DNA of 64,000 nucleotides from Leucosporidium creatinivorum. Its lineage: Eukaryota > Basidiomycota > Microbotryomycetes > Leucosporidiales > Leucosporidiaceae. Of the stretch, positions 53 through 58,183 are shown in pieces. A model generated the notes under the pieces. It made no database searches, was not told where the DNA came from, and worked only from the letters and a program-made list of their open reading frames with translations. The first letter of the stretch is position 1. Every line of letters starts with the position of its first letter. The stretch lies in assembly GCA_001600635.1 (NCBI GenBank), contig BCKL01000025.1:248001-312000 (forward strand), read 5' to 3'. The position numbers and the translations under genes were made by a program.

Positions 53-1041
53 TCACAGCACCCACGGTCCCGCCAAGCTCCAAAGCATCCACCTCGGCTG
101 CTCTTTGCCGAACTCGGCCTTCTCCCTCTGATCCTTCTTCGTGTCGGGCTGCGAGTTGTGCGTCTCGGTCGAGGCTGAGATAGGCGGAGGAGGAATGATG
201 GTACTCGTCACTCGATCCACGACTTGCAGGCGGTAGGTCGAGATTAGACGGCGGAAACGGAGCTCGGCGTTGGAAGGGAGGGCGAGGGCTTCGGGGGAGC
301 AGGCGAGGGTGTTGCTATCGGGGAAGAGGTCATAGCCGTTGCTGTAGGAAGGAGCGTAATTGGTGATGACTGGCGAGGGAAGCGATACCTGGAGGCCCTG
401 CTTCGTGGCTTGGAGAGGAATGGCGATAGCGCTCAGCTCGTCGAAGTCGTTCCAGTCGTCCGAAGGCTCGTCTCTCCACGCGGCGACCTCGAGCAGATAC
501 AGCCCGAAGGGTGCAAGAAGCTGTTCGGCAGTCTGCGAACAGGATCACGTCAGCGAACTATCGGCAGATGGAACAGTCTCGTCCCGCTCACCTTCACTTG
601 CTCGGGGGAACCGAACCAGTCGATGCGATCCTTGAACTCCAGACCGTCGTAGCACCACTGGCACGAGGGCCATCCCCATCTCTTCCACATGGGACCCTCT
701 TCTAGAGTGAAGCTGTCGATTGACCAGCTGTTCGAGCCCTCGCCGGCGGCGTTGGAGCAAGCTCCGCACCTGTACTTCGTCAGAGCAGCGAGCTCCTCAT
801 CCCAGAGCGCTTCGTCGATGAGCTCTTGCTTGACTAGCTCCCAGACCTCGTCAGGAAGGTCTCTGACCGTCGTCTTCGAATCCTGAGCTTCGGCGACTAG
901 CTTCTCTTGTCGGCGGCGGAGCGAGATGAGGTCGATAGCGACAAGGGCGGGCTTGATCTTGGCGTGAGCACCTGCAGCGAATGCCAGCGACCAGGTTTTG
1001 ACCCAGAGCCCGTAGAACAGCGTGACAAAGCTGTAGGGCAT
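53..1041 (-). CDS. Family-X member A (unknown, F-box-like, four-Cys)
   Basis: First of seven paralogues in the window, here called family X. Two exons, 592..1041 and 53..532, join in phase to 309 residues; the intron starts GTGAGC and ends CAG. The N-terminus contains TLFYGLWVKTWSLAFAA, a hydrophobic block shared by the family, then AIDLI and the F-box-like DLPDEVWELVKQELI at about residues 60-75. Next come two cysteine pairs, CGAC and CQWC, spaced like a zinc site. Exon 2 carries the shared FRRLISTYRLQVVDR and ends with PRWMLWSL plus a short tail. The function is unknown; an F-box/SCF adaptor role is only a guess from the LPxEVW motif, because no full F-box follows. The start ATG was chosen by alignment with the other copies. 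It is divergently transcribed from the flippase gene. Confidence 0.8.
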
Positions 1042-1550
1042 TCTGAGCGAGCGTTTCGTGAGGCGGTGGGGCGGCGGAAGCGGTAGGAGGCTGTAGGAGG
1101 GTTGCTAAGAGCGAGAGAGCCTGCGCTGAGGCGTAGGTAGCTTTCAATTGATCCTATAGGCCTCCAGCACGAGTCGAAGCGAGAAGACGAGGATGCTGGC
1201 GGGAGCCAAGAGCTTAAGAGAGCTCGAGAGCTAGAGGTGCTCGCCGTCTCTTGGACTTGTCCGTGTCGCTTCGAATTGTAGAAGAGGCTCGAAAGCACAT
1301 CTAACAGCTTGGTAAGAGCCAACAGATGGCTGCTACTGCGACCAAGCTGACCCTTGTCCGCCTACAGCCCCTCACCACGTCCGCGCCCTCGTCGAACGTC
1401 GGCCAACCCGAAGCAAGCTCTACACTAAAGCAGGAGCTGGCTCAGCTCACCGAACGGGTACAGCTACAGCTACTGCTGCTCCCGACGATCTCGAGCGCGC
1501 GCCAGTCGTCCACCTCACTCGCGGCCGCACGCTCCTCCTGAGCTCGCTTG
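1042..1550. promoter_or_regulatory. Divergent intergenic region, family-X A / NEO1
   Basis: About 500 bases lie between two divergent start codons, so both promoters should be here. I see no TATA box, no repeat and no convincing extra gene; open frames in it are shadows. Confidence 0.5.
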
Positions 1551-4500
1551 ATGAGCCGACCTTCACCTCCGCCGACACCTCCGCCAACCTCTGCCCCGCC
1601 TTCGCCGACTTCGCTACAGAACCGAGACGTGCCCCTCCTCCGCTTGGACGACTCGCACTCGTTCGCAGCCCGAGACCGCGCCCGCCGCGCCTTCGACAGC
1701 AGCATTACTAACAGCATGACGTCCAGCCGCGCCAGCTCTGCTGGGCAGCAGGGACTCACTCCCAGGGAGCGCAAGCAGAGCAATCCGCTCTCGCAGTTCC
1801 GCTCCAACGCTTCGCTCAGGTCGAGCGTCGCTTCGTCGGCGGCGACACTCAAGGGCGACGCTGCTTCCAGTGCAGGCGGTCGCTCAAGAGGTGGATACGG
1901 TGGGAACCCAAGAGGGAAGGATCGCTACTCGGATGCGCCGGACGAGGATGATGATCTGCTAGGAGGAGGGCCGCCGGGACTGCAGGGGCGAGGGGAGTCG
2001 GACGGGGAGTATGACGAGGGCTGGGTGAACGGATTGGAAGCTGAGGAGGAAGGTATTGCATTATTGGGTGGTGACAAGGTTAGTCGACGAGCCTCCGACC
2101 TGCCAAAGCCGAAGCTGACCTTCGCCTGTCCTCGCAGTCCCCTCGGCCTTCGCATCCAGGCAAAGGCGTCTCCCTCCCTTCCCTCGGTCTCTCCAAGAAG
2201 CCCTCCAGCAAACCTCGAACCATCTCTCTCAACGGCGCCGACAAGAAGAGCAAATTCCCAGCCAACGTCGTCCGCAACCAAAAGTACAACGTCCTCACCT
2301 TCGTCCCCCTCGTCCTCTACGAGCAGTTCAAGTTCTTCTACAATTTGTACTTCCTCCTCGTTGCTCTTTCGCAATTCGTGCCCGCCCTGCGTATCGGTGA
2401 GTCCAGCTGGAGTTCCCTCGCAGGAGAGAGCTGACCTCGGCGTTCCCTCACAGGCTTCCTCGCGACCTACGTCGTACCCCTCGCGTTCGTACTCGCGATC
2501 ACCATCGGCAAGGAAGCCTTCGACGACTACAAACGCTACCTCCGCGACGCCTCGGCCAACTCGACCCGCTACCTCCTCCTCGATTCGACCGCCTCACCCC
2601 TCCACTCCAACTCGCACCACTTCGACGCTGAGGAAGGCGGCGCATCCACTTCCAACATCCCCCTCCGTTCCATCCCTTCCAGCAAGATCAAAGTCGGCGA
2701 CATGCTCCTCCTCGAGAAAAACCAACGCGTCCCCGCCGATATGCTCCTCCTTCGCACGTCGGATCCCTCGGGCACCTGCTTCGTCAGGACCGACCAGCTC
2801 GACGGAGAGACGGATTGGAAGCTTCGCGTCGCTGTTGAGCGGACGCAGAGCCTTACCTCGGACGCCGACTTGCTCGAGATTGAAGGAGACGTCTACGCCG
2901 ACCCACCGACCAAGGACATCCACACCTTCATCGGCACCCTCACTCTTCGCTCTCTCCCATCCGCGCTCCCTACGCCAGACCCCGAAGATGGACCCGAGAT
3001 GGAGATCTCGCACCCCGTCGAGCCGCTCACCGCCGAGAACATGTTGTGGGCCAATACCGTCCTCGCAGCGGGCAGCGCCGTCGGCATCGTCGTCTACACG
3101 GGCAGGGAGACTCGAGCCGTCATGAACACAAGTCAGCCGGGCACCAAGACGGGATTGCTCGATATGGAGATCAACCGATTGGCCAAGGTGGGTTGTGTGG
3201 CCGTCGGGGGAGGGAGGACGGAGGCTGACCCTTGCCTCGCTTTTGCAGATTCTTTGCGCCTGCACGTTCGCCCTCTCGGTCATCCTCGTCGCTCTCAACG
3301 GCTTCCGAGGTCACTGGCCTATCTACGTCTTCCGCTTCCTCATCCTCTTCTCCTCCATCATCCCCATCTCGTGCACTGCCTCTGCCTTGCCTGCGTCGCT
3401 CTTCGCTGACCTCGACGCTACTACAGCCTCCGCGTCAACCTCGACATGGGCAAGACGGTCTACGCCCACCAGATCATGCACGACAACGAGATCCCCGAGA
3501 CCATCGTCCGAACCAGCACCCTCCCCGAAGAGCTCGGTCGTATCGAGTACCTCCTGAGCGACAAGACCGGCACGCTTACGCAAAACGAGATGGAGCTTAA
3601 GAAGCTGCACCTCGGTACCATGTCTTACGCCGTCGATTCGATGGACGAGGTCGCCCATCAGCTCGCCACCGCACTTGGAGTACCGGCGCCGAGCGAGGGA
3701 CGGGCGGGCGGTCAGCTTACGACAGGAGTCGCTCTCGCTACGAGGGGTCGTCGTGACATGTCTTCTCGAGTCAAGGATGTCGTCCTCGCTCTCGGTCTCT
3801 GCCATAACGTGAGTACTCGACTGCCTCGAGGCGCGTTGTCGAAGCTGACCCTCTTCGTGCGCAGGTCACCCCCGCCCTCGACGACGACGGCACTATCACC
3901 TACCAAGCCTCCTCCCCCGACGAAGTGGCCATCGTCCGCTGGACCGAATCTGTCGGCCTCACCCTCTCCGCTCGCGACCGAACCTCCATGTCCCTCCGCA
4001 CGACCGCCGGCCAAACCCTCTCCTTCGACATCCTCGAAGTCTTCCCCTTCACCTCCGAGTCCAAACGCATGGGCATCGTCATTCGTGATCGCCAGACGGG
4101 GGAAATCACCTTCTACCAGAAAGGAGCGGACGTGGTGATGGCCAAGATTGTCGTGTACAACGACTGGCTCGAGGAGGAGTGTGGGAATATGGCGAGGGAG
4201 GGGTTGAGGACGTTGGTGATGGCGAGGAAGCGGTTGAGCGAGGAGAACTGGAGGGCCTTCGAGGAGGGGTACAGGGAGGCGAGGGTCAGCCTCGGCGACC
4301 GGAACGTCGCCATCAACCGAGTCATCGCCGAGTATTTGGAGAAGGACCTCGAGCTGTTGGGGGTGACGGGAGTTGAGGACAAGCTGCAAGACGATGTCAA
4401 GATGACGATTGAGCTGTTGAGGAATGCGGGCATCAAGATCTGGATGCTGACGGGGGACAAGATCGAGACGGCGACTTGTATCGCCATTTCCACTAAGCTC

Positions 4501-6117
4501 GTCGCCAGGAATCAGTACATTCATCAGATCGCCAAGCGTACGCCGCTTTTACTCTTGTTGTCTGGATTTCTGTGCGGTGGAGCTGATCGACTCACCGCCT
4601 CGCAGTCAAATCCCCGGCCGACGCTCGCGACGAGCTGGACTTCCTCCAATCTAAGCTCGACTGCTGCCTCGTCATCGACGGCGAGTCCCTACAAGTATGT
4701 CTTCTTGTCGCCGTATCTCTCGTCTCCTCTCCCGATCTGACCTCGGATCCACAGCTCTGCATCGAGCACTTCCGGGACGACTTCATCGAGCTCTCGACCA
4801 AACTCTCGGCCGTCGTTGCTTGCCGTTGTTCGCCCACACAAAAGGCCGATGTCGCTCGTCTTATTCGCGCACACACCAAGAAGCGCGTCTGCTGCATCGG
4901 AGACGGAGGCAACGACGTCTCGATGATCCAAGCTGCCGACGTCGGTGAGTCTGCTCTCCTGCTCACCTCCATCCTCGCCGCGCAGCTGATGTCCTCTCGC
5001 CCTTCCTTTGCACTTCACAGGCGTGGGCATCGTCGGTAAAGAAGGTCGTCAAGCCTCCCTCGCCGCCGACTTCTCCATCAACCAATTCAGCTACCTCACC
5101 AAGCTCCTCGTGTGGCACGGTCGCAACTCGTACAAGCGCTCGGCCAAGCTTGCCCAATTCGTCATTCATCGAGGGTTGATCATATCCATCATTCAAGGTG
5201 AGTTGAGTCTGAGTAGCTTCGCCGAGTCGAAGCTTAGCTGACCTGGCTCCCATCCTCGTTTCCACAGCCGTCTTCTCCTCGGTCTTCTACTTGTGCGCTC
5301 ATCTTTCTTGTCCTCTCATCTCCATCTCCCTCGGTGCTTATGCTGACCCGCTTTCCCGCCGCAGCTCCCCCATCGCCATCTACCAAGGCTGGCTGATGGT
5401 CGGCTACGCCACAGCATACACCATGCTCCCCGTTTTCTCCCTCGTCCTCGACCGCGACGTCAATGAGGATGTGGCCTTGCTGTATCCTGAGCTGTATAAG
5501 GAGCTGACGAAGGTGAATTTGAGCTTGCGGTTCGAGCGCCGAACGAGTGGAAGCTGACCAGCGAGTTCACGCACAGGGACGCTCGCTGTCGTATAAGACC
5601 TTCTTCACCTGGCTCATGATCTCGCTGTACCAAGGTTCGCTCTCTCTTCCTCCTTCCCTCTCTCCCCAGCTCGGCGCTGACCCTCCCTCTCTCTCGACTT
5701 GCAACAGGCGGCGCCATCATGATCGCCTCGCTCGTCCTCTTCGAATCCGAGTTCCTCAACATCGTCTCCATCTCCTTCTCCGCCCTCGTCCTCAACGAGC
5801 TCATCATGGTCGCGGTGGAGGTGACGACTTGGCACTCGCTCATGATCCTCTCGGAGGTCTTCACCCTCGCGCTCTATGTCGTTTCGATCCTGTTCTTGCC
5901 AGAATACTTCGGTGAGTGGTCTGCTTCTTCTTCTAGCTGTCTTGAGCTCGAGCTGACCCCGTCGCCGAGTCGCCCCTCAGACCTCTCCTTCGTCCTGTCC
6001 ACCACCTTCATCTGGAAAGTCGCCCTCATCGTCGCCATCTCGGCCGCACCTCTGTGGATCATCAAGATCCTCAAGGGCCGTTTCGCACCGACGCAGTACG
6101 CCAAGCTGCAGTACTGA
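1551..6117 (+). CDS. NEO1: P4-type ATPase, NEO1-like phospholipid flippase
   Basis: Aminophospholipid-flipping P4 ATPase of the NEO1/ATP9 branch, which acts in Golgi and endosomal membranes. Fourteen exons (1551..2078, 2138..2396, 2454..3187, 3249..3370, 3427..3808, 3865..4537, 4606..4694, 4755..4944, 5021..5197, 5268..5292, 5365..5512, 5577..5634, 5708..5911, 5981..6117) join in phase to 1241 residues; yeast Neo1 has about 1150. Visible are DGETDWKLR in the actuator domain, the phosphorylation motif [16 protein letters not shown], the nucleotide-binding part with [13 protein letters not shown], and the hinge [16 protein letters not shown]. The tail has the NEO1-like [17 protein letters not shown] and further membrane spans. 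Exon 1 adds about 176 residues of Ser/Pro/Gly-rich, probably disordered sequence, the usual place for trafficking signals. A 25-nt exon (5268..5292) is easily missed by gene finders. Confidence 0.95.
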
Positions 6118-17329: not shown

Positions 17330-19871
17330 ATGCTCGCATGTTTGCAGCCTCAGCCAGATCTCGTCCAAGCCTCGCTCTACGCTCAGCCCAGCCTGTACCT
17401 CTCTCCATCAACTTCAGCACTTCCGCGCCCGCTGGAAAAGGACGCATCCCTCGAGTTCATGGACCTCGAAACGGCAGTGGAGGTGAGTACTGAGAGCTCG
17501 CTACAAACATACAGCTGATCAAGTACAAGCAGATCCTGCGCCTCGTCCTTCATCTCCTACGGCCCGCACCCACCGACTCCCTCCTCACCGCAATGCCCTC
17601 TCCGACTGGCGCCTGCTCTTCCACACTCGCACTCGCTGGATCGCTCGAACCCTTGCCCGAGGTAAATGGATACCACCAAAACTCCTCTCCAACATCCTCG
17701 TCAACCGTCACATCCCAGTCCAGCAGCTCACGCTCTGGGTCGAAGTCCTCTCGAAGAGGGACCTCTACGAAGCCATGGAGCGGCTCGGCCTGCTCGAAAG
17801 CGGCGGAGAAGGTCGAGAGAGGGTCGAGTTCCCCGACTGGCTCTTCCTCTCCCTCCCCGGCCTCCTCCGCTCGGCGGATCAGGCGCCCTACCTCGCCAGC
17901 ATGCTCGGCTCGACTCGATATCGACAGCTCAGCGAGGACCAGCAAGGACTCTTCGCCTCCCGATGTATCCAACACTTCTTGGAACTCGGTCACTACGTTG
18001 CTGTGCGCGAGACAGTCGAGTGGCTCTGCTACCACGAGCAGCAGGTCAAATCGGCGATGTCATTCGCTCGCTACCTCTCGGCGCTGGCTAGCCATCGGTC
18101 GTCGGCGTACGGGCTCCAAGGACCACCCTACGAGCTCTTATCCTCGCTCACTCGCCTACTGAGATCGACGATGGCTCGTCGAGGCGTCAAGCCCAACCTC
18201 GAGGTCTTTCGGGCGCTCTTCCGACCAGCGCTCATCCCGAAGGAGCCGAAGGACGTCGCTCGGCTGGTGCTGGAGATGGAGCAGGCGGGACTGCCTCCAA
18301 AGCGCAGAATATTGCATCAGGCCATGACGGTGTACGCCAGGGCGGGTGACGTTGAGGGAGCCGAGATGTTTTATCGGCAGATCGTCGGCGAGCAGGGCAA
18401 GGCAGGGGAAGCGGTGGAGACGGAGGGCGCGGATGCAGAAGGAAAGGAGGTGGAGACTATGGGAGACCCAGCTGGAGGCGTCTATGCCACCACTCGTCTT
18501 CGGGCATTCGGCGACGACATCAAGGCCGCCTTCGCCTACTTCGACCTCTGCCTCCAAACCCCTCATCGCCGAGGCCTCCCTGGCACCCTCCCACCCCTTT
18601 TCGACGGAGTGACTTGGTCCAACCTCTTTCATATCGCCTCATCGAGCCCAACAGTCTCCTCCCAAGACCTCCTCAACGTCCTTCGCAAGCTCGAGAAGGC
18701 CGCCTCCGCCGTTCGCACCAAAGAGGACGACACACGCTACATCCCTCCACGCCCTTCTCTCTACATCTACCACTCCGTCATGCTCGGTCTCCTTCGCCGC
18801 CACGACCCTCGTCTCGTCGCCAACCTCTGGGTCAGCCTTCGCGCCCGAGGCCTCGAACCCGACAACCACCTCCTCGACGCCGTGCTTCGCGCCTACCTCG
18901 CCTTGGACGACTCACGTTCAGCACTCACCCTCCTCGACCAATTTGCCTACAAGCCATCCGAAGATCCACCTCTCAATCCCACCATCCGCCATCGCCGACT
19001 TTCTCGCTCGACCTCCCCTCCTCCCTCTGCCATCCCCAACACTCTCCAACTCGACGTCATACCCCTCAACAACCTCCTCCACTACTACAACCGCTCCGGC
19101 TACACCTTCAACTGCTACCGCCTCTTTCTCAAGATGCAGTCGACGTACGGCGTCCAGCCCGACGCCGCGACCCTCTCCATCCTCATCGACGCTGCTCGCT
19201 ACTCTTCAGCAGCTGCAGGGCTAGGCTACGGACCCGGTAGCGAGGCGATTGATGTGAGCGGGGTGAGAGGGAAGGGACAGGACGCGGCGCCGGATGATTT
19301 GTGGGGAGATGAGTCGAAGGGAGGGAGGAAGGAGCATGCTTGGAAGGTGGCGGAGAGGTTGTGTTGGGAGGTGTTGGAGGGGAATTGGCCGGAAGGAGTG
19401 GAGCGAGTGAAGGATCCGATGGAGGGTGGAGGAGTGGTCAATTGGCTGCTCGGTCGAGGAGGGGAGGGAGCATCGTCGTCGAACGCCGAGGACAGCCACG
19501 CCAGCTCCGACCTCACCACTCGCCCCACCTTCCCCGCCACCCTCTCTCTGGTCAACCCGCCTTCCTACCCTTACCTCTACCCCACCGAGCGCGTCTTCCG
19601 CTCCTTCATCCAACTGCTCGGCTACCACTCCACCCCTCGCGACATCCCCCTCGTCCTCGCCTGGATGCGCTACATCGGGATCAAGCCCTCAAGGCATACG
19701 CTTACTCTCGCTATGTTGTATGTCGGCGAGCTGGGGTTGGAGGAGAGGAAGATGGGGAGATGGAGGAGTTGGTTGAGGGAGTGGCTTGGGGAGGAAGAGG
19801 TGCCGGCGGAGGAGGAGGTTGCTTTCGTCAGGAGGGGTGGAGGGAAAGCAGGGAAGCCGATTAGACGGTAG
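17330..19871 (+). CDS. Pentatricopeptide-repeat protein, probably mitochondrial
   Basis: PPR proteins bind organellar RNA and act in its processing or translation. The large exon contains degenerate PPR units, for example LHQAMTVYARAGDVEGAEMF, NHLLDAVLRAYLALDDSRSA, PLNNLLHYYNRSGYTFNCYR and a final FRSFIQLLGYHSTPRDIPLV, spread over roughly 700 residues. Repeats are separated by Gly/Glu-rich inserts. The N-terminus is uncertain. From ATG 17330 an exon ends near 17484, and the next frame gives ILRLVLHLLRPAPTDSLLTA. Coding sense then moves to another frame, LSDWRLLFHTRTRWIARTL, around 17595, where no intron fits. That needs one extra base and could be an assembly indel or a real mutation. Which mitochondrial RNA it serves cannot be told. 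Confidence 0.78.
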
Positions 19872-22092: not shown

Positions 22093-23961
22093 ATGTCGGT
22101 CTACGCCTCAGCGTCGCTCGCTTCAGACATCTCTACCCGTACAGCAATCCGTGAGCTGCTCTGTCTTGCTATCCTGTAACCCAGCTGACCGTCCCGTGCT
22201 TCACGCGTCGCAGGGACCACACCTCATGCTCTCCTCCCCGCGCTCAACGCCTTGCTCGCTTCGCTCCTCATCCCCATCACTCTATCCTCACTATCACTCG
22301 CTACACCTTCACTCCTTCTCACCCTCCTCGAATCGCTACTCGAAACGCGCTTCACAACAATCGCGCAGGAGGTTCGGTCGAGCTGGGAGCGCAAACATCG
22401 CACAGAGGTCACCGAGTTTCTCGTGGAAGCCATAGCGGAGGTGTTGGACCGAAGCGATGTATCCCAAGCGCGCAGGGTGAGGGAGGTGGAGGTGTCGAGC
22501 GTTGTCAAGGGCCGAGAGGAGGGCATCTCAGTCCTCGTCGAAGGCCTCCTTCGCATCGCCGAACGGATGGGTCTGTCGTTACGGTCACGAGAAGATGAGG
22601 AACGGTCCACCATCATCCACGACGACTCCAGAGCCCCGACCCCAACGCCTCAGTATCCGCGCCGAGATGCTCCCCCTCCTTCGCAGCTCGGCCCACCAAC
22701 CCCCCTCGCTACTTCCACACCTCCCTACCGACCCTCCTCCTCGCTCTCCACCTCCTCCCGCGTTTCCCTGCGACACGTAGTCGCCATCTCCCCTCCTCTC
22801 ACACCTCAACACCAGCCAGCTCCCGTCACCCCTCGAAGCACTCTTCGGCTTAAAGGACTCGCCAACGCGCTCGCATCATCTGCACCGCGACGAGATCGAC
22901 CACCACTCTTTGTACCTCCTACTATGGCCCCAGGATCGCAGAAGGATGTCGTCAGGCCAGTGCCGAGACGAGGAGTGAGCAGAGCCGAGGTGGACGATCT
23001 CTTCAGCTCGGTGGTCTTGGAGGCGCAAAGCGGTGGTGAGCAGGGCCATACACGCTCCTCGGAAGAGGTCGAAGACATATCTCGTCGACGTCGGAAGAAA
23101 GGAAAGGGCAAAGCGAGGCAGGATGTGTGCGACTGCGGAGCTTCGGTCGTCGGGGACGGGGTGGAAGCAGAGGTCTGCACCTGCGCGGACCACGCCCCAA
23201 CGTCTTTTTCCCCACCTCGCTTCAAGGCCAAGTCCCGTGCTCCTCGCCAACCTCATCGAGCGCCCGCCTACGAGTCCAGCGCTTCGGACGACCCTCCCGC
23301 CCCATATCCAACGCGCACCATCCCCGCCATCAGCCCTCGACCACCACCACGGCACTCTCGTTCCCAATCAGTCGCTCATCGACAACAACACTCCTCATCT
23401 ACCTCAGCCCCTCCTCGCCCAGCCCCGGCAGCAGTGCAGATCCACCACGCTCGCTCAGGCTACCTCTCCGTCGTCGGCGAGTCGGAGATTGAGGCGTTCG
23501 AGAGGTCGCAGAGGGTCAAGAAGAAGGGTCGTAGCAAATCTGCTGATCTGGGAGCGGCGCAGGAAGGTCAAGCAAGGGCGGGCGAGCTCAAGCTCGAGCC
23601 GCCGGCAGGGTGGGGCTGGGTTCGGATCGAGGATGAAGGGCTCGCAGGTCTCGCTTCCACCATCAGCCACTCGCATCTCGACCGGTCTCCGCCTCGTCAG
23701 TCGACCACCAACCCAGCAGCACCGCCCGAAACGCCCTCGCCCTACACCCTCCTCCTGCTCTCCCAACGAGCTCGGTTGGCGGAGAAGCTGCGAGATCTCA
23801 AGTTGGGGAAGATGGAGCGAGAGAGGGGGAGGCCCTTCTTGGAGGAGACGACTGAGGCGGAGGAGGGCGAGGAGGAGGGAAGGAAGGAGAGGGTCGTGGT
23901 GAGGAGGAGGGTGGAGAGAGTTGGAGAGGGGTGGTGGAGGGATGAGGAAGGGAGGAAGTAG
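22093..23961 (+). CDS. Unknown protein, helical N-terminus, long disordered body
   Basis: Two exons, 22093..22150 and 22214..23961, join in phase to about 601 residues. The first 60 or so residues are a leucine-rich helical block (ALLPALNALLASLLIPI, TPSLLLTLLESLLETRF). It resembles the small N-terminal domain annotated in basidiomycetes as DUF5745, a calponin-homology-like fold; that link is from memory and weak. The rest is Ser/Pro/Arg-rich and probably disordered. It has one Cys cluster near the middle (DVCDCGAS, VCTCADH) that might bind metal, and a Glu/Arg-rich C-terminus. The frame is supported by uninterrupted length and by the first-exon splice. Confidence 0.6.
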
Positions 23962-24128: not shown

Positions 24129-25126
24129 TCAGGTGCAGCCCACGACCAAGCTCCACAGCATCCAGCGGGGTTCGGCTTTGGCGAACAGCCCTGACCTCTC
24201 CTTCTTGACCTCGGCTTTCTTCTTGGTCGCGCTGTTGTCGGCGTTTCCGTCGCTCGCGGCGGGAATCGGCGTCTCAGTCTCAGGGGAGAGTCGAGGATCG
24301 CCGAGAGGGAGAATAGAGCCTCTGGTCCGGTCGCGAACGTCCAGGCGGTAGCTGGAGACGAGGCGATGGAAGCGGGCATTGGCGTCGGCGGGAGCGATGA
24401 AGGCTTCGGGGGTGACGTTGAAGACGCTGTTATCGCAGCCCTCGTCGCTGTCTCCGATAGCCACGATTGCAGGGTAGCGGTCGTCGGAGGGGCGTTCGGT
24501 GAGGGCTGAGCGGAGAGGCAGCGAGATCGCCATTAGGGTCTCAAAGTCTTTGTGGCACTCTGGTCCCTTCTCCTTCCACATGCGCTGGGAGGGAAGCTGT
24601 AGGTGGTAGTGTTTGAGAAGCGTGGCGATGTCCTGCGCAAGATGAGTGAGCTCGAGGAACCTTGGCGATGGGAAACGGAGACCCGTGAGCTTACCGCGAG
24701 TTGTTGTGGAGTGCGCCCTCGCAAGATGTTTGACACCGCCAGGTGCTGATAGCACACGTCGCACCAAGGATCACACCAGTGGCTCCAGTCGTAGCTGGGT
24801 GCTCGGTAGGTCTCTTGGACGTCTTCCCGAGCCGCTTGGTCGCACGAGTTGCAGCGGAACTGTTTAAGACGGTCTTGCTCGGCGTCCTCGGCCTCCAAGC
24901 CCAGCAGCTGATCCTCGACGAGCTCCCACACCTCCTCCGGCAGATCCCTCACGGTCGTCTTCTCGTCTTGTCCCGTAATCTCGAGCTCTACGCTTCTCCT
25001 CCTGCTGACGATGAGGTCGATGGCGAGGAAGGTAGGTCTCGTAGCTTTGTGAGCGGTAGCGGCAAAGTCGAGCGAGGCTGTAGTGACCCAGAGGCCGTAC
25101 AAGAGCGTGGCGTTGCTGAAGCACAT
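24129..25126 (-). CDS. Family-X member B (unknown, F-box-like, four-Cys)
   Basis: Exons 24695..25126 and 24129..24632 join in phase to 311 residues around a 62-nt intron at the family position, just after PQQLA and before DIATLLKHYHLQL. The N-terminus MCFSNATLLYGLWVTTASL is close to copies D and G. It carries LPEEVWELVEDQL, cysteine pairs CNSC and CDVC (with WSHWCDPW between), FHRLVSSYRLDVRDRTRG and the tail AEPRWMLWSL. A Lys-rich stretch precedes the tail. It sits tail-to-tail with the unknown gene ending at 23961 and is followed upstream by copy C on the same strand. Confidence 0.82.
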
Positions 25127-25446
25127 CGAGCCAGGGTGGGAGGCTGAGAGGGAGGGCTGTGTAGGGTGGTAGAGAGCTTCTGTAGGCTACTGAGCCTGCT
25201 TGTCCGGCTTCTGAGCTGCTGTTGGCGAATCGAGGCGAGAGCGAGCGATGTGGTGAGAGGCAAGAGCGGTCGAGGCGACTTCGAGCCCCTTCTCTCTCGG
25301 CTCCGAAGGGCTGCTCTTAACTCTCGCGTCTGCTCTCGTATAGCTCGCTCGTTTATGAAGAAGAGTAGAAGCTAGCATTTTCGACAAGCACGAAAGACTA
25401 CACCACAGCAAAGCGAAGCAAGCGACCAGATCCGCCTCTCCTCCCC
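25127..25446. other. Gap between family-X copies B and C
   Basis: About 320 bases, holding the promoter of copy B and the 3' end of copy C. Like the other copies, the B leader has CTACAG a few tens of bases before the ATG. No other feature seen. Confidence 0.4.
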
Positions 25447-26467
25447 TCAATCGCACGGCTCACACAAGCTCCACACCATCCAGCGAGGCGCTAAGTTCTT
25501 CTTGTCGGCCGTGACGAGCTTGGTAGACTTCTTCTTCTTCTTGAGCTTCCTTTCATCATCGTCGACGGCGGGAGGCACGGCGGGGAGGATCTGCGTGTCG
25601 ATGCGGTCGACGACTTGCAGGCGGTACGTCTTGATCAACTCGGAGAACCTCTGCTGAATGTTCCTCATCTTGTTGGGGGCGTCAAAAGCACTGAGAGAGA
25701 CGTTGACGACGGTGGATCCCGATCCGCTGTCGTGGATCGCTTCGGCGATGGGCGAAGGGTACTCGTTATGGTGAGGGCGGCGGAAGCTCGTGTTGGGAGT
25801 GGTGGGAATGGGAGCGGTCGAGGTGAGGGGGAGAGCAATGGCAGAGAGCGAGCCGAAGCAGTGGTCGCTTTCGGGGTCCTGCTTCCAGACTTCGGCTTTG
25901 GGCATGCAGAGGCCGAATTGGGCGAGGAGCTTCTTGACGATGGGCTGTAGGAGACTAGGGTCAGCCTCGTTCTGTCTGCGCAGGGTAGAAAAGAGGAGAC
26001 AGAGTGGAAGAGGGACTCACAAAGTCGGGCGAGCGAAACGGCTCCTTCTCGTAGAGCTCGTCGCGGCAGTACTCGCACTTGGGCAAGCTCCAGCCGCTGT
26101 TCCACACCTCGCCCGTCCTCTCCTTATTCTTGTCAGCCCATCCAGCCCAGCGAGGTCCCTCGTCAACGTTCAGAGCGATCTTGCACCCCTCGCAGCGGTA
26201 CTCGGCAATCTCGTCCTGTTCAGCTTTGAGCAACGCGTTGTCGAGCAAGTGCTGAGCGACGAGTTTCCACGTCTCGGTCGAAAGGTCGCGAGCGGTCGTG
26301 TGCGAGTCCTGCTCCTTGACGTTGAGCGAGCCGTTGTGAAGGCGGAGTTGGATGAGCTGTAGGGCTTTCAGAGGAGATTCGGTCTTGGTGTAGGCTTCGA
26401 TGGCAAAGTTGAGCGAGCTGCTGGTGACCCACACGCCGTAAAACAGAGTGCCATGCGACCAGCACAT
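25447..26467 (-). CDS. Family-X member C (unknown, F-box-like, four-Cys)
   Basis: Exons 26021..26467 and 25447..25944 join in phase to 314 residues. The N-terminus is MCWSHGTLFYGVWVTSSSL. The F-box-like motif is weaker (DLSTETWKLVAQHLL). Cysteine pairs CEGC and CEYC flank a Trp-rich stretch (RWAGWADKN, EVWNSGWSLPK). Exon 2 has FSELIKTYRLQVVDRIDT, a run of six lysines and the tail APRWMVWSLCEPCD. It is more diverged from B, D and G than they are from each other. An in-frame upstream extension to 26689 exists, but alignment supports the ATG at 26467. It is divergent from TRM8. Confidence 0.82.
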
Positions 26468-26682
26468 TGTGAGCGAGGCGTTCGAGCTTTGGGGGCCTGT
26501 TGAAGAGCTTCGAAGACGGTGGTGCAGCTGGGAGAGAGAGCTGGGAGCTGTACTGAAGTGCCAAGCTGTAGCCTGAGCTGCTTTTAGGTGTCGACCGAAA
26601 CCGACGAGGAAGCTTAAGGCCAAGGAGCGAAATCGCAGGCTTGCCCTCTTACGCTTATCTCGTTCAAGACTTCGGCGCAGCA
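26468..26682. promoter_or_regulatory. Short divergent promoter, family-X C / TRM8
   Basis: Only 215 bases separate the two start codons, so the promoters must overlap. No specific motif was recognised. Confidence 0.45.
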
Positions 26683-28067
26683 ATGGCACGAAGAGGCGGG
26701 AACAAGAGCGGCACAGCTAAACCGCAAGATCCTGCTCTGCTGGCAGGAGCAGCTACTACAGAGACTGGAATGCCCCGCGTGAGCTGCTGCCTTCTCCCCC
26801 CCTTTGCGAGCTCGCGCTGACCAGGCTTGGCCTACAGAAACGGTTCTACCGCCAGCGCGCCCATGCCAACCCTCTCAGTATCCACCACCTCGAATAGTGA
26901 GTCCTTACAGCTCCACTACAGCTCAGCGCGAAGCTCAAACTGACCGCTTCGAACGAAAACAATCAGCCCTTCGTCTCCTGCTACCATGGACTGGTCGACC
27001 CACTACCCGACCTTCTTTGATGCACCTAAAGCGGAGGGAGAGGGCAGTGGAACTGGCAAGGGCAAGAAGGTCGAATTCGCCGACGTTGGCTGTGGATTTG
27101 GAGGGCTTCTCATCTCGCTCGCGCCTCTGTACCCCGAGACTCTGATGATGGGTGAGTTGGCTCGGGCTGTTTGCGCATATCTATAACAGCGCTGAGACCT
27201 TTCGTTCGGTAATCCAGGACTCGAGATCCGCACCCAGGTCACCCAATACGTCTCGGACAAGATCCGCGCTCTCCGTCTCAACCCCGGCAGCGTCGACCCC
27301 GACAACCCAGAGGAGCCTCTCATTACCACCACCGACCCTCTTCCCAGCGAGCTCGCTACCACCAGCACCGCAGCCGGTTCGGACGAGCCCCCAGCGAAGA
27401 AGGCCAAGGTCGACGATGAGGCGGCCAAGACGAGGCTCGCACTCCAGCCGCCAGAGGGATACGCCTATGGTAATGTCAGTGTGCTGAGGGGTAACGCTAT
27501 GAAGTTCTTGCCCAACTTCTTCGACAAGGCTCAGGTGAGTTGCTCGACCAGTCTCTTCAGCCTATCGCCGAGACTGACTCTCGCTCCTCTGCTCCAACAG
27601 CTCTCCAAGATCTTCTTCCTCTTCCCCGACCCGCACTTCAAGGCTCGCAAGCACAAGGCTCGAATTATCTCGTGCGTTCCCTCCCTCTCTCCTTCCCTCG
27701 GCGCTTCACTAACCTCCCTCGGCTTTCGCTCGACAGGCCCACCCTCCTCGCCGAATACGCCTACGTCCTCCGCCCCGGCGGACTCCTCTACACCATCACC
27801 GACGTTCCCGATCTCCACACCTGGATGGTCTCCCACCTTGCTCCCTTCCCTCTCTTCAAGCGATTGACCGAGGAGGAGATTGAGAACTTGGGATTGGAGA
27901 GCGGGGAGGGTGTGGTTGGTGTTGAGGGGAGTGAGCTGGGAAGGGAGAGGGAGAGAGCGGTGATGGAGGCGGTGAAGAGGAGGACGGAAGAGGGGAAGAA
28001 GGTCGAGAGGAATGGGGTTGGGAAGCAGTGGAGTGTGTGGAGGAGGTTGAGCGATGATGAGGTGTAG
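26683..28067 (+). CDS. TRM8: tRNA (guanine-N7)-methyltransferase catalytic subunit
   Basis: Catalytic subunit that, with Trm82, makes m7G46 in tRNA using S-adenosylmethionine. Six exons (26683..26778, 26838..26896, 26967..27151, 27218..27534, 27601..27671, 27737..28067) join in phase to 352 residues. Signature parts are [17 protein letters not shown] at the start, [10 protein letters not shown], the SAM-binding [48 protein letters not shown], and [15 protein letters not shown]. An acidic/Thr-rich insert of about 40 residues follows the SAM loop, longer than in yeast. The gene is flanked on both sides by pairs of family-X genes. Confidence 0.95.
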
Positions 28068-28197
28068 TGGGCTTGGTCATAGAGATTCGAGCTGTTATTC
28101 TGTACCATCTACAGCGAAGTAGGAGAACTGCTCGAAGCTGAGACGAGAAGACATGCACCGAGCCCTTTTGGGGTCCAAGAGACGGTCGAAGCTCTTC

Positions 28198-28353
28198 CGC
28201 CATCTCTGTTCTCCTGCCACATCTTCGTCTCGCTTCTCGCCGCTCGTCGACAGCTCTCGACAGGACTTCAGAGCAGCAGCTACACCTACAGCAGTCAACT
28301 CACAAGCTCATCCTCAGCCCCTTCTCCGCCCGCCATCGCTCGCCCTCTCGAAA
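28198..28353 (+). repeat. Leader shared by family-X copies D and G
   Basis: The 150 or so bases before the ATG of copy D match those before copy G (58035..58183 on the other strand) with few differences, for example CTCCTGCCACATCTTCGTCT in both. The match continues into exon 1. It marks a recent duplication or conversion that carried the promoter along. Confidence 0.75.
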
Positions 28354-29380
28354 ATGTGCTGGAGCAACGCGACGCTCTTCTACGGCCTCTGGGTCACTAC
28401 AGCCTCGCTCGACTTTGCCGCTACAGCCCACAAAGCTACTCGACCTACCTTCCTCGCTATCGACCTCATCGTACACCGGCGCCGCTCTGGAAAGCTCGAG
28501 ATCGAAGGCCAAGACGAGAAGACGACGGCGAGGGACTTGCCCGAAGAGGTCTGGGAGCTCGTCAAGCACGAGCTGGTGGAGATCGAGGTCGCTAGAGCGG
28601 AGAAGGCCCGTATTTACCGCTTCCGCTGCGACATCTGCCACGAGATGGCCTACGAGGAGGCCGAGCAACGCTTCGAGTGGGATCTGGAGGACGGAAACCT
28701 TTCGCAGGGAACTGATCCCGAGGTGAAGCAGCGTTGGACCCGCTGGGGAATGCCCGAGTGCGAGCATGGCGGTTGCTACGGCCGCATTGGGGATTCGGGG
28801 ATCCTGCGGGACCGCACCATTGAACAGATCGAGGTCGGCCGAGCTACGCTACTCCCAGACGAGGCGCTTGCTTACCTCAAGCTCGCAAGACATCAACGTT
28901 CTACTCAAGCACTACCACCTTCAGCTTGCGACCGAGCACCTCTGGCCCAAGGACGGCGAGGAGAGCTACTGGGACTTCGACAGCCTCATGGCGATCTCGC
29001 TCCCTCTCCAGACGACGGAATCTCGCTCCCCCAGCCTACATGTGGAGAGCTGCCAAGATTATGGCTCTAGCAGTGACTCCGTCCATTTTGCTCGTGACGC
29101 CTTGCACGTCTCCGCCGACGCCGACCGCTGCTTTCGCCGACTCGTCTCGACCTACCGCCTCCAAGTCGGCGCACGCGGCGGCACTTCTCCCCACCAAAAC
29201 GCTACTGGTCTCTCCTCCTCCAAGAACACCGTCTCATCTACCACGACCACCGCAACGACTACGCAAGCCGGCGATTCCAGCACGAGCAAGAACGCCGAGG
29301 TCAACAGCAAGGCGATGAGGCGCGTTGCCACCGTGGAGCCTCGCTGGACGCTCTGGAGCGTTGCCGAGTCGTGCATGTAG
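28354..29380 (+). CDS. Family-X member D, splice junction damaged
   Basis: Exon 1 (28354..28833) starts MCWSNATLFYGLWVTTASL and is nearly identical to copy G for the first 80 codons, with LPEEVWELVKHELV and cysteines CDIC and CEHGGC (a four-residue spacer instead of two). By homology exon 2 should begin at 28889 with DINVLLKHYHLQL and run to the tail EPRWTLWSVAESCM. At that point the intron would end in AA, not AG, and its donor is GTCGGC rather than GTRAGT. The nearest AG, one base later, shifts the frame. So D may be mis-spliced, use an unusual site, or be on the way to a pseudogene. Exon 2 still reads open for 164 codons including FRRLVSTYRLQV, which suggests recent damage. Confidence 0.68.
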
Positions 29381-29763
29381 GTGGGCTAGCTGCTTTGAGT
29401 CAAGAGTATGGAGGGATGAGAGGATGAGGGTGGGCGAGCGAGCCTTTGAGTGACGGAGGCTCGGACTCGGACTCGGAGGCAGCAGCGAGGCGAGAATGGC
29501 GATGCTTGCTGAAAGGAGATAGTGTAGCTTTGCTCGTATACTTTCAGAGCCTGAGAGACCGAACCCAGTGGAGAGATCTGTCTCGTGCGAGAGGCTTCAA
29601 GAGCAGCCGACGAAGGTCCCTCGTCTCTCGCTCTCCTCCCACATCTCGCACGCGCTTCGGCTTCTCTTCGCGAACCTCGAAGCGACGCTGAGCTCCATCT
29701 CGCTGTACCTCGGATCCCAGCGCACCTTTCCCCTCCCTTCAGCCCTCTCTTCTCCCTCGAAAG
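29381..29763. other. Gap between family-X copies D and E
   Basis: About 380 bases; promoter of copy E. A short part near 29630-29680 resembles the D/G leader (CTCCTCCCACATCTCGCACG), consistent with a common ancestral leader. Nothing else recognised. Confidence 0.4.
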
Positions 29764-30766
29764 ATGAGCTCGCCGAGCGGCACTGTCTTCTGCGGCCTCT
29801 GGGTGACCACCAGCTCCCTCAACTTTGCCGCCACCGCTCATTGCGACAAAGTACTCCTCTCCACCCTCCTCGCCATCGACCTCATCGCACGTCGCTGGCG
29901 CACCGGCAAGCTCAAAGTCAAGCGCCTCGGCTCGAGTGCGACGGCTGCCGACCTGCCCTCTGAGATCTGGAGCAAGATCAAGCAGGAGCTGTCGGATGAA
30001 GCTGTGGGAAAGGCTGAGCTCGGTACGCTGGCGAGATATCGTTGTACGCAGTGCTGGGAGGAGGATTTGAGCCGAGCGATCAGTCGACCGAGGGAGAAGG
30101 GAGGGGATGTCAGGATTGAGCATGATTGGGTGAGGTGGGGAGAGCCGAGGTGCTCGGGAGGCGGGTGCTATGACAATGTGGTGAGATCGAAGGTCCTGTA
30201 CCATCGCTCGACCCAGCAGCGCGAGGTGAGTTGTTGGCTTTCCTCCTTTTCGAGCTCCGAAAGCTCACTGATCGCGCTCGGTCATCTTGCAGGACATCTC
30301 CAACCTCCTCGAAGACCATGGCCTCCACCTCGCTTCTCGTCGTATGTGGTCCAAGGACCCCAACGACCCGTTCGACTTCCACTCCCTCTCGGCGATCGCC
30401 TTCTTGGCCATCTCGCTCTCGCCCTCGACGCCCAGCAAGAAGAGCAGTCGCTCCAAATCCTCTTCTTCCAAGACGAACGGCGCTAAAGCCTTCAGCGCCG
30501 ACACCTCCGCCGTTCCCCTTAGAGCTCAAGCCCGAGTCCGCCGCCTCATCTCGGACTACGGGCTGCAGGTCGTCGAGCCCAAGGGAGCGGTCGATCTCGT
30601 CTCGGATTCGAGCTACGCCGACCTTCAAATCAAGCTCCAGCCGACGAAGGATGCCGGCGCCCGAGGACAGGCCGAGTCGAAGTTCAAGGGACAGGAGAAG
30701 ACGAGCTTCGAGGCTGATGAGTTGCGTTGGGTGCTGTGGAAGGATAAAGACGAGCTGAATGGGTGA
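29764..30766 (+). CDS. Family-X member E (unknown, F-box-like, four-Cys)
   Basis: Exons 29764..30225 and 30293..30766 join in phase to 311 residues; the intron has a clean GTGAGT donor, CTGAT branch site and TTGCAG acceptor at the family position. N-terminus MSSPSGTVFCGLWVTTSSL, F-box-like DLPSEIWSKIKQEL, cysteines CTQC and CSGGGC, then DISNLLEDHGLHLASRRMW. It has VRRLISDYGLQVVEPKG and a divergent tail, ELRWVLWKDKDELNG. A Ser/Lys-rich stretch lies mid exon 2. It is the most diverged intact copy in the window. Confidence 0.8.
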
Positions 30767-53400: not shown

Positions 53401-53981
53401 CGCGTCGACGCGGTCGCCGACCTCAACGTCGCCAACCTCCAGAAGGGGGATATCATTCAATTCGAGAGGAAGGGATACTACATCGTCGACAAGGCGTTCG
53501 ATGCCGCCTCCTCCACTCCCGCCGAATTGATCCTCATCCCCGACGGCAAGGCTTCCTCCATCGTCTCCAAGTACGTCGCCGCCCAGGAGGCTGCTGCTAA
53601 GGCCTCGGGAGCTGCCAAGGCTGCTGCCGCCCCCGCCAAGCCTAGCAAGAAGGCGCAGGCTAAGGCTGCTAAGGCTGCTGCTGCGGGAGGAGCAGCTCCT
53701 GCCGCCGCCGAGAAGGCGACGGCTAAGATTCCCGAGCCCGCCCCTTCCGAGGCGGTCACCACTACCCTTCTTTCGAACGTCAAGACCGGGTACGAGATCC
53801 CTATTCACACCAAGATGTTCCGCGTTCCTTCGGTTTGTGCGTCGTGTTTGGTCTCTGGCTTCTCGGCGAGCTCGAGCTGACACTTAATTTTCGGTCGGCG
53901 ATTACAACAGACGGCGAGGATGGTGTCGAGGCGCCTGCCAAGACTGACATGTTCAAGGTCAAGCCTGTGTACCAGATCTAG
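50401..53981 (+). CDS. GUS1: Cytosolic glutamyl-tRNA synthetase
   Basis: Charges tRNA-Glu in the cytosol. About twelve exons. An N-terminal GST-like domain (residues 1-180, ending near [13 protein letters not shown]) normally binds the Arc1 cofactor. The class I catalytic core follows: [18 protein letters not shown] (HIGH motif), [38 protein letters not shown], and [13 protein letters not shown], the KMSKS equivalent. The anticodon-binding beta-barrels run through [12 protein letters not shown] and [17 protein letters not shown]. Unusually, a Lys/Ala-rich linker of about 60 residues ([18 protein letters not shown]) and a terminal piece, [20 protein letters not shown] to KVKPVYQI, follow the barrel. 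The linker may help tRNA binding; that is inference. Confidence 0.95.
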
Positions 53982-55625: not shown

Positions 55626-56667
55626 CTACTCACTCCCACACTTGTTCCACATCATCCACCTCGGATTCGGCTTCCTCAACCACTTGACCTTCCGCCTGCT
55701 CTCCTTCACCCCCGAGTCATTCCGCATCAGACTATCAAATTGCCCCTGCCAGTCTAGCCCCTTCAGACAGACCGAGAGGGTCGGGGTCGATCTCATCGTC
55801 TTCGTCGAAGGGAACGAGGTGCTGCTGGAATTTCTCGATGGTGGGAAGGCGATAGGTCGAGAGGAAGTGGTAGAATGTGGCGTCGTTGGGAAGGGTGAAG
55901 ATCTCAGGAGAGATACTCGCGACGGCGAGTAGACCTGCACCATCGTGATCCGCCGAGGCGTATAGCATAGGGTAGTATTCGCCGTCTCGGCCTTCCTCGC
56001 GGATGGGGAGAGCCACCGCCGTGTAGCTGTTGCCATCACTCTCCGAGAGACGGTAGGCGTCGCTCGCCGTCATGAGATCATAGTCTGTGAGCATTTCCTC
56101 GATGAGCTTGGGCCGAGGAGCAACGTCAGCACTTGTGTCGAGGGGAAAAGGTCTGCGCCGAATCGCCGAAAGTAGCGCTCACCTCATCGTCGCCCGAAAA
56201 CGGCGGGAAGCCCGTCTCCCACATCATGTTCTTGAGACATTTCTCGCACGCTGGAGCGGTCCAAGTCGTCCATTTGTAGCGAAGGATAGTCTCTTTCGAC
56301 GCTCCCATCTCGTCGTCCTCCGCCAAAGGGTCGTCATGCGCTTGCTCTTCGCCCGCCGCACTGCAGTCCTTACAGCGCAGCTTATCGATACACTTGCGCT
56401 CCTCCACGTCAAGCTCGTCTTCCTTCCCAAATAGCTCTTGATCCTCTCCCAAACCTCAACCGGCACGCGAGCAACGGCTGGCACTTGGCTGGCCTTGTCT
56501 TGGTCGCTGGGCGTGACTTTGAGCGTCCCAAATTGATAGCGATGTGTGATGAGCTGGACAATTTTCAGGGGCCCGTAGATATTGACGTGGGCGCGAGCAG
56601 CGAAGGCGAGAAGAGCTGTCGGCACCCAAACGCCGTAAAAGAGCGCCGCGCTGCCGGAGGATCGCAT
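55626..56667 (-). pseudogene. Family-X member F, frameshifted
   Basis: Same layout as the other copies but broken. Exon 1 begins MRSSGSAALFYGVWVPTALL and reaches VPVEVWERIKSYLG; then the coding sense moves to another frame, GKEDELDVEERKCIDKLRCK, around 56430. It continues through cysteine pairs CKDC and CEKC to an intron near 56105-56185. Exon 2 starts EEMLTDYDLMTASDAY and holds FYHFLSTYRLPTIEKF. The family tail NPRWMMWNKCGSE is in yet another frame, so a second shift lies near 55780. Two independent shifts argue against a single sequencing error. It lies directly downstream of copy G on the same strand. Confidence 0.78.
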
Positions 56668-57028: not shown

Positions 57029-58034
57029 TCATCTACAAGGCTGGCACAGGCTCCAGAGCATCCAGCGCGGCTCAGTTTCGGCGAAAAGCTTCGGCGTCTC
57101 CTCCAAGTTGGCTTCGGCTTGCTGACTCGAGGTCTTGCTGGCGGCCTTCTCGTCCTCGGTCGCCGACGTCCAACGAGGGGTGTCACCGAGAGAGAGGTGA
57201 GGATCGTTGGGGGCAAGTCCTGAGCCCTTGGTGCGGTCGACAGCTTTGAGGCGATAGGTCGAGACGAGACGGCGGAAGCGAGAGTTGGCGTCGGCCGGGA
57301 CTACGAGAGCTTTGGGGGTGAAATTGAAGATGTTGCTGTTCGGTCCATACTCGTGATCGCCTTCCGCCTCGACGGTCGGGAAGCTCGAGTCGGTCGAAGC
57401 GAGGGGGAGCGCGATGGCCATCAAGCTGTCGAAGTCCCAGTCCCGTTCCTCGCCCTCCTTCTTCCAGAGATAGTCTGAGGGTAGCTTGAGGTCGTGCTGC
57501 TTGAGAAGCCTGTCGATGTCCTGCATAGCGAGGCTCAGCAATACTTCGGCGATCGGCAGAGCAGCAGCCTACCACAAGTTGCTCGGCAGTGCGATCGCTC
57601 AGGATGCCCGAGTTCATCACCTCGTCATAACACGTATCACAATCAGGCTCGCCCCAATGGCTCCAGGAGTGGTCGGGGATGGGCTCGGGTCCTTTACTGT
57701 GGCAAGGGCACCATTCATCGGCACCGAACTCCTCCCAGGCTTGATCGGCGCACCCCTCGCAGCGGAGACTCGAGAGCCTGTCCTGCTCTGCCTTCTCAAC
57801 TTCAATCCCGACCAGCTCGTCCTTGACGAGCTCCCAAACCTCCTCCGGCAGCTCCCTCGCCGTCGTCTTCTCGTCTTGGCCTTCGATCTCGAGCTTTCCA
57901 GAGCGGCGCCGGTGTACGATGAGGTCAATGGCGAGGATGGTAGGTCGAGTAGCTTTGTGGGCTGTAGCAGCGAAATCGAGCGAGGCTGTAGTGACCCACA
58001 GGCCGTAGAAGAGCGTCGCATTGCTCCAGCACAT
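57029..58034 (-). CDS. Family-X member G (unknown, F-box-like, four-Cys)
   Basis: Exons 57573..58034 and 57029..57520 join in phase to 317 residues. MCWSNATLFYGLWVTTASL and the following 60 residues match copy D almost exactly, with LPEEVWELVKDELV. Cysteine pairs CEGC and CDTC flank DHSWSHWGEPD. Exon 2 starts DIDRLLKQHDLKLPSDYLW and includes FDSLMAIALPL, FRRLVSTYRLKAVDRTKG, and the tail TEPRWMLWSLCQPC. A second donor three bases upstream of GTAGGC is possible and would drop one Val. This is the most typical intact copy and a good reference for the family. Confidence 0.84.
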
Positions 58035-58183
58035 TTTTGAGAGGGCGAGCGGAAAGGGCGAAGGAGGGGCTGAGGGTGAGCTTAAAGGTAATGTGCTGTA
58101 GCTGCAGCTGCTGCTCCTGTCGAGAGCTGACGACGAGCGGCGAGAAGCGAGACGAAGATGTGGCAGGAGGACAGAGATGGCGG
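58035..58183 (-). repeat. Leader of copy G, shared with copy D
   Basis: Reverse-complement match to 28198..28353, including CCACATCTTCGTCTCGCTTC and the bases just before the ATG. See the entry for the D leader. Confidence 0.75.

Follow-up and report, generated by a model that had tools for sequence, protein, structure and literature searches.

The window, a stretch of 64,000 nucleotides in which an earlier note placed seven copies of an unnamed multigene family, raises the question of what these genes are and why they lie together. All seven loci were recovered at those places, and their kinship is more than chance, since a genome search with copy G matched exon 1 of D at 1e-60, B at 2e-54, A at 3e-29, E at 1e-28 and C at 4e-27, and F at 4e-8. 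Five copies have one phase-0 intron each, of 52-76 bp, after codon 144-154: A (53..1041, minus strand; exon 1 1041..592, intron 591..533, exon 2 532..53; 309 residues), B (24129..25126, minus strand; exon 1 25126..24695, intron 24694..24633, exon 2 24632..24129; 311 residues), C (25447..26467, minus strand; exon 1 26467..26021, intron 26020..25945, exon 2 25944..25447; 314 residues), E (29764..30766, plus strand; exon 1 29764..30225, intron 30226..30292, exon 2 30293..30766; 311 residues) and G (57029..58034, minus strand; exon 1 58034..57573, intron 57572..57521, exon 2 57520..57029; 317 residues). A mechanical model search reproduced A, B and G, and ranked an alternative acceptor for C (323 residues) level with the 314-residue model; B, C, E and G each share 37-41% identity with A.

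The length of 309-317 residues and the single intron at one position, claimed for all seven copies, hold for these five but not for the other two. Copy D (28354..29380, plus strand), in which both exons are recognisable, lacks an acceptor in frame where these five have their intron: its donor is GTCGGC and its acceptor reads GCAAG, so that the shared splice is out of frame, and the full-length model obtained for it relies on different splice sites, with loss of the second C-x2-C. It is probably a decaying gene. Copy F (55626..56667, minus strand) shifts frame within exon 1 and a second time close to the end, and is broken. N- and C-terminal motifs are conserved in the family, but some copies lack motifs that the earlier note quoted as common to all: E ends RWVLWKDKDELNG and C has LSTETWKLV. 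As the earlier note had it, copies lie around TRM8, a TRM8-type methyltransferase (PF02390 matches) being encoded between C and D. Most modelled copies also share an upstream element, CTACAG, which lies 55 nt before the start of A (1091..1096) and also precedes the starts of B (25180..25185), C (26566..26571) and G (58096..58101), in every case on the minus strand. It occurs within 150 nt upstream in 19 of the 22 modelled copies and is rarer in random 150-nt stretches (1707 of 20000) and at other ORFs (4 of 24); a 5'-UTR intron was rejected as its cause, there being no consistent donor.

Seven copies in 64 kb is correct for the window, but the number is an effect of the window's borders. Four genome searches with different members (G, A, Rhodotorula glutinis P0016 and a diverged copy at 342 kb) detected 29 family loci, every one on contig C25, where they are spread over 350 kb. 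This contig makes up 1.6% of the genome (440,178 of 27,713,604 bases); elsewhere the same searches found no full copy, just a 42-residue match on C12 and marginal matches on C3. Modelling covered 26 of the 29 loci (those at 93.3, 383.0 and 388.6 kb were left out) and yielded full-length one-intron models for 22; the remaining four, namely the copy at 40.7 kb (no model), D, F and the copy at 343.7 kb, were treated as decayed and kept out of the tree and the remaining statistics. The intron is in phase 0 in 19 of the 22 kept models and in another phase at 72, 247 and 370 kb, and the copies at 98, 357 and 385 kb use GTC donors; these six models are less certain. The ranking of models relied on a profile built from relatives in the database and so favours models that resemble the family.

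Exon 1 of G (57573..58034, minus strand) encodes the conserved N-terminal part of the protein. The alignment of 22 exon-1 translations and the structure models point to a conserved N-terminal strand-helix-helix module followed by a C-x2-C / W-x2-W / C-x2-C site, with the second cysteine pair at the start of a predicted helix and the intron about 19 residues past the last cysteine. All four cysteines are present in 21 of the 22 copies; the first C-x2-C is missing in one and the first tryptophan in two, and in 20 of the 22 a distance of 26-45 residues separates the starts of the two C-x2-C-type pairs. Among the database relatives, R. glutinis P0016 is without the cysteine site and L. creatinivorum P0005 without the second pair. 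A membrane or secreted protein was rejected, the highest 19-residue Kyte-Doolittle mean among the 22 proteins being 1.57; the proteins are probably soluble and intracellular.

That no described family has this set of motifs agrees with the database searches. With Pfam (threshold E 10, HMMER filters on, which drop most matches above about 0.1), a single match at E 0.11 was obtained for each of two of the five window proteins, and no family matched more than one of 20 relatives (best E 0.011); one source's label of P0008 as a DUSP-domain protein was unsupported by Pfam. The PDB yielded nothing below E 0.13 by sequence, the best match being ribosomal eL34, and no relative by fold (Foldseek; best E 0.86 with the full-length model and 6.1 with exon 1). 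The short F-box-like motif L-P-x-E-V-W-x-L-V is present in most copies and could make these proteins divergent F-box proteins that retain a remnant of the F-box helix and act as ubiquitin-ligase adaptors. This reading is highly improbable: the same Pfam searches gave no F-box match in any of the 5 window proteins or 20 relatives, and the motif is predicted to lie within one long helix, residues 64-90, directly before the cysteines. A single relative of the 20 matched a transposase zinc ribbon (E 0.033), as might be expected of a mobile-element relic with an amplified zinc-ribbon protein, but the match is weak and limited to one member, no full copy was found off C25 in the genome searches, and retroposition is argued against because the intron is kept in 22 of 22 modelled copies, leaving such an origin extremely improbable.

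The family looks lineage-restricted on sequence matches, as the earlier note proposed: among the matches listed (8000 candidates scored), 16 of 21 are from Leucosporidium and one is from R. glutinis, and the named relatives are 15 L. creatinivorum proteins, one of L. scottii and one of R. glutinis. In a tree of the 22 copies, 14 of the 15 L. creatinivorum proteins (P0019 was left out), the L. scottii protein and the R. glutinis protein, the main subfamilies are common to this genome and L. creatinivorum, and are older than the split from L. creatinivorum. Copy E pairs with L. creatinivorum P0021 (support 100/100), G has P0001 as an L. creatinivorum relative, and copy C is a long branch; P0010 and P0021 look incomplete. 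The 14 L. creatinivorum proteins encoded on one contig have best matches that cluster on C25, a degree of clustering equalled in 90 of 20000 permutations; this figure is independent of the zones of the C25 map, to which 14 of 14 conform but which were drawn with the tree already known. Copy order is similar at the contig level in L. creatinivorum, and so offers no hint of heavy shuffling in a non-recombining core.

The family was also described as fast-changing, which is correct only in part. A young tandem array was rejected, the closest pair among the 22 modelled copies being 67% identical, and similarity is weakly related to map distance (rho 0.137, reached in 235 of 5000 permutations). Ten chosen pairs have dN/dS of 0.26-0.53 (NG86) with dS of 0.69-1.86, values that are partly saturated near or above 1; for many pairs YN00 gave no usable estimate. 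Over the first 80 codons dN/dS is 0.06-0.35. Diversifying selection was rejected, dN/dS being below 1 in all ten pairs. The family is old and constrained; its core is conserved and its other parts are looser.

The earlier note did not remark that the contig with all the copies is also that of the P/R mating-type locus. The single STE3 receptor detected in the genome (C25:435,951-436,551) is best matched by A2-named receptors and, with RibL18ae (433.8 kb), RibL6 (417.3-418.2 kb) and a STE12-like gene (414.9-416.6 kb) nearby, makes C25 the P/R contig; the family copies are 47-395 kb from STE3 on the same 440-kb contig, and the homeodomain gene is on C24. These observations derive from one genome and one mating type, with its A2-like STE3. 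According to PMC3236058, STE3 of red yeasts has RibL18ae or LSm7 as its neighbour on one flank and RibL6/RNAPOL on the opposite flank, with RibL18ae beside the A1 receptor and LSm7 beside the A2 receptor; the A2-like receptor here differs from that arrangement in adjoining RibL18ae. The P/R locus of L. scottii is reported, in the part of PMC6730849 available, to contain STE20; a PAK gene at the start of C12 was considered as STE20 but set aside, having an apparent PH stretch, and may be CLA4-like. For L. creatinivorum, whose STE3 or STE12 was sought on its 395,707-bp contig, no entry of that species occurs among the 35 STE3 matches listed or among the best 120 of 1453 STE12 matches.

The position of the copies may be a coincidence, the family being an ordinary local one that expanded by tandem and block duplication and whose function has nothing to do with mating. 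Fungal genomes commonly contain local clusters, and two-gene blocks recur on C25 as adjacent opposite-strand pairs of the same two subfamilies (40.7/42.1, 71.9/72.2 and 88.1/88.4 kb) and as convergent pairs (207.5/209.7 and 246.9/249.0 kb). By chance, however, STE3 would fall on the family contig with a probability of about 1.6%, or about 3% once HD, a second marker that was tested and is off C25, is taken into account. Moreover, the single L. scottii member (A0A0H5FSE5) is in the same accession block as L. scottii STE12 (A0A0H5FUJ4), and its best match is the 385-kb copy, 29 kb from STE12 on C25; the A0A0H5F accessions presumably stem from the work of Maia et al. 2015 on mating type in L. scottii. 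Coincidence is quite possible, though short of an even chance.

The reading preferred here, with a probability of roughly 45%, is that of an undescribed, old family of the Leucosporidium lineage that was multiplied by local and segmental duplication, was kept on the P/R segment, and acts as partner-binding regulators. The four cysteines, judging by their motifs, would bind a zinc ion; the conserved N-terminal module may serve all copies as a scaffold or for dimerisation, while the choice of partner may fall to the middle and C-terminal parts, which are looser. The copies would then form a set of regulators, binding proteins or nucleic acid, that is inherited in linkage with mating type. No sign of the conflict or recognition roles that the earlier note inferred emerged from the analysis. 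Linkage of the cluster to STE3 need not involve mating, and it is unlikely that these approximately 30 zinc-finger-like proteins are a functional part of the Leucosporidium P/R region, as a multi-copy, mating-type-linked system that is maintained through co-inheritance with STE3 and governs recognition or inheritance, be it partner compatibility, the inheritance of nuclei or mitochondria, or drive.

Among known systems, the wtf genes of Schizosaccharomyces pombe, which encode membrane proteins and include decayed members, offer the nearest model of a killer or meiotic-drive family, whose copies would kill or arrest partners or spores without them and would be preserved because they are linked to a region of little recombination. 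According to PMC5478263, wtf has 25 members, most of them on chromosome III, and they are believed to encode poison and antidote proteins. The C25 family resembles wtf in how many copies it has, in their restriction to a single chromosome region (all 29 loci are on C25) and in its decayed members, and selfish elements are noted at fungal mating-type loci in a review (PMC7898863). Unlike wtf, it looks soluble, with four cysteines, one intron and old subfamilies shared with L. creatinivorum; the 22 proteins are without a strongly hydrophobic segment, dN/dS is below 1 in the ten pairs, and the gene models revealed no second product, so that drive is very unlikely. In its two C-x2-C-type pairs, the second at a predicted helix start, the family is like treble-clef or zinc-ribbon fingers; unlike these, it is marked by W-x2-W before the second pair, and neither Pfam nor the PDB gave a match that would place it among them.

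Fungal mating-type regions are models of sex-chromosome evolution. The P/R region of red yeasts and L. scottii (STE3, RibL6, RibL18ae, LSm7, STE20, KAP95) has its counterpart in C25, which also carries STE3, RibL6, RibL18ae and a STE12-like gene. The contents described for such regions, in the available portions of PMC6730849, PMC3236058 and PMC7898863, are receptors, pheromones, signalling genes and housekeeping genes, and for red yeasts the text available from PMC3236058 names no multigene family, unlike the situation on C25. An undescribed family of 29 copies that is restricted to the P/R contig and has subfamilies common to more than one species would be a type of resident new to such regions, and would allow a clean comparison of A1 and A2 strains in copy content, linkage and expression.

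The seven copies of an unnamed gene family proposed in an earlier note on this DNA divide into five clean two-exon genes (A, B, C, E and G) and two related but irregular ones (D and F). In gene models from the window each of the five has a single phase-0 intron, 52-76 bp long, that follows codon 144-154; the products measure 309, 311, 314, 311 and 317 residues, respectively, and B, C, E and G are 37-41% identical to A. Copy D (window 28354-29380) splices out of frame at the shared site, copy F contains two frame changes, and a TRM8-type methyltransferase lies between C and D. Other neighbours in the window are pieces of P-type ATPase (2435-6114), the last of the phospholipid-translocating kind; an open frame of 794 residues with PPR-repeat matches (17487-19868); an open frame of 590 residues adjoining copy B, with a weak coding score and no Pfam match (22189-23958); pieces of a glutamyl/glutaminyl-tRNA synthetase near copy F (50901-53877); and a piece of a glycosyl hydrolase of family 18 (60883-61353).

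Across the assembly (27.7 Mb, 63 contigs), searches with G, A, an R. glutinis relative and a diverged member, the copy at 342 kb of C25, together locate 29 loci, all 29 of them between 40.7 and 389.1 kb on C25, the contig of which the window is C25:248001-312000; this contig of 440,178 bp makes up 1.6% of the genome. Elsewhere there are a 42-residue N-terminal match on contig C12 (C12:508,929; E-value 2e-5 with G, 1e-6 with A and 0.03 with the 342-kb copy) and marginal matches on contig C3 (0.003 with A and 0.06 with the R. glutinis relative). Full-length one-intron models of 294-323 residues were obtained for 22 of 26 modelled loci, with the intron in phase 0 in 19; the other four gave no such model, or one via an odd splice alone. 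In D and in the C25 copies at 98, 357 and 384/385 kb, GTC replaces GTG or GTA as the intron start at the shared site, which may mark weakened splicing. Pairwise identity among the 22 modelled copies reaches 67% at most and has a median of 34.5%, and similarity is weakly related to map distance (rho 0.137, reached by 235 of 5000 permutations). Two-gene blocks are repeated on C25 (40.7/42.1, 71.9/72.2 and 88.1/88.4 kb; also 207.5/209.7 and 246.9/249.0 kb), in each of which the same two subfamilies are paired on opposite strands, some blocks being inverted whole; this points to duplication of blocks accompanied by inversion.

The part encoded by exon 1 comprises a strongly conserved N-terminus, a basic stretch rich in R-R-R, an L-P-x-E-V-W helix and a cysteine site, C-x2-C ... 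W-x2-W ... C-x2-5-C, of which the four cysteines are complete in 21 of the 22 copies and the W-x2-W part is present in 20. The exon 2 part is made up of a looser region, an R-F-R-R-L-x-S-x-Y-R-L block, a linker of low confidence and P-R-W-M-L-W as the end block; there are exceptions to each of these among the copies. Two AlphaFold2 models, one of the L. creatinivorum-named database protein P0001 with 20 database sequences (pLDDT 72, pTM 0.69) and the other of G exon 1, run with 22 sequences from this genome (pLDDT 73, pTM 0.51), agree in placing strand(s) within residues 3-15, helices at 16-45 and 64-90, the first C-x2-C after the latter helix, and a further helix at or after the second cysteine pair. 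A fold search with the full-length and G exon 1 models matched no known fold, and none of the 22 proteins contains a strongly hydrophobic stretch. Overall dN/dS (NG86) in ten chosen pairs ranges from 0.26 to 0.53; it is 0.06-0.35 within codons 1-80 and 0.33-0.58 after them. The family is under constraint, weaker away from the N-terminus, and no positive selection is seen in these pairwise averages, which could miss single sites. From the cysteines, and from the contrast between a conserved core and the variable rest of the protein, we infer that the proteins bind zinc and probably a partner; the role in conflict proposed earlier is a minority reading. In 19 of the 22 copies (all except E and those at 342 and 370 kb), the 150 nt before the start contain the hexamer CTACAG in sense direction, compared with 1707 of 20,000 stretches taken at random and 4 of another 24 open reading frames, whose starts are only approximate; the reverse complement of CTACAG is absent from the 250 nt upstream of all 22. 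Shared descent explains this recurrence in part, and CTACAG may be a common start-site or promoter element.

At least 21 database proteins match a profile of five window proteins (15 from L. creatinivorum, one from L. scottii, one from R. glutinis and four without a species name), and among the matches listed the nearest named relatives are from Leucosporidium. The best matches to L. creatinivorum-named proteins are 46-69% identical. In a tree of 38 rows, copies of this genome and L. creatinivorum-named ones interleave, with ten label changes, eight of them forced by starred branches, which implies that the main subfamilies are older than the split between the two sets. Ten of the 15 L. creatinivorum proteins are on one contig of 395,707 bp and find their best matches here in the C25 copies at 203-385 kb; the three on a 66-kb contig and the one on a 58-kb contig match the copies at 42-88 kb, and the one on a 56-kb contig matches the 180-kb copy. 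The fit of these proteins to zones of C25 is 14 of 14, with one (P0019) left out and the zones drawn after the tree was seen; independently of zones, the closeness on C25 of copies matched by same-contig proteins was equalled in 90 of 20,000 permutations. The L. scottii protein (A0A0H5FSE5) has the 385-kb copy as its best match, and shares an accession block with the STE12 of that species (A0A0H5FUJ4); the common block, together with neither record having contig data, points to a single targeted submission, which we take to be the work of Maia et al. 2015 on mating type. The earlier claim that the family has no described counterpart is supported. No title or abstract opening in the literature searched describes it, and A0A0H5FSE5 is mentioned in none of that literature; other papers, the L. 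scottii study among them, may describe the family.

C25 is the P/R mating-type contig. Matches to the STE3 pheromone receptor family occur at a single place in the genome (C25:435,951-436,551), 3-4 kb from the contig end, and the receptor assembled there most resembles an A2 receptor of Rhodotorula toruloides (68%); nearby are RibL18ae (433.8 kb), RibL6 (417.3-418.2 kb) and a STE12-like gene (414.9-416.6 kb). The sole Homeobox_KN match reported for the genome is on another contig (C24:378905-379027), where searches with the family queries found no family members; a tetrapolar system would fit this separation of homeodomain and P/R genes. A PAK kinase gene, with a match to CRIB and with kinase-like and PH-like stretches, occupies one extremity of C12 (C12:1-3025); this end and that of C25 may adjoin each other, and the 42-residue family remnant is on C12 too. 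With the location, number, age and constraint of the family established, its linkage in this genome and the L. scottii record suggest a functional tie to mating. That a local cluster came to be near STE3 by coincidence is nearly as likely. One of the two mating-type markers tested (STE3 and homeodomain) is on C25, and the chance of a given gene being on a contig of this size is about 1.6%. The gene order here differs in detail from that of red yeasts, in which RibL18ae and RibL6/RNAPOL flank STE3.A1, and LSm7 and RibL6/RNAPOL flank STE3.A2 (PMC3236058), whereas on C25 RibL18ae adjoins an A2-like receptor.
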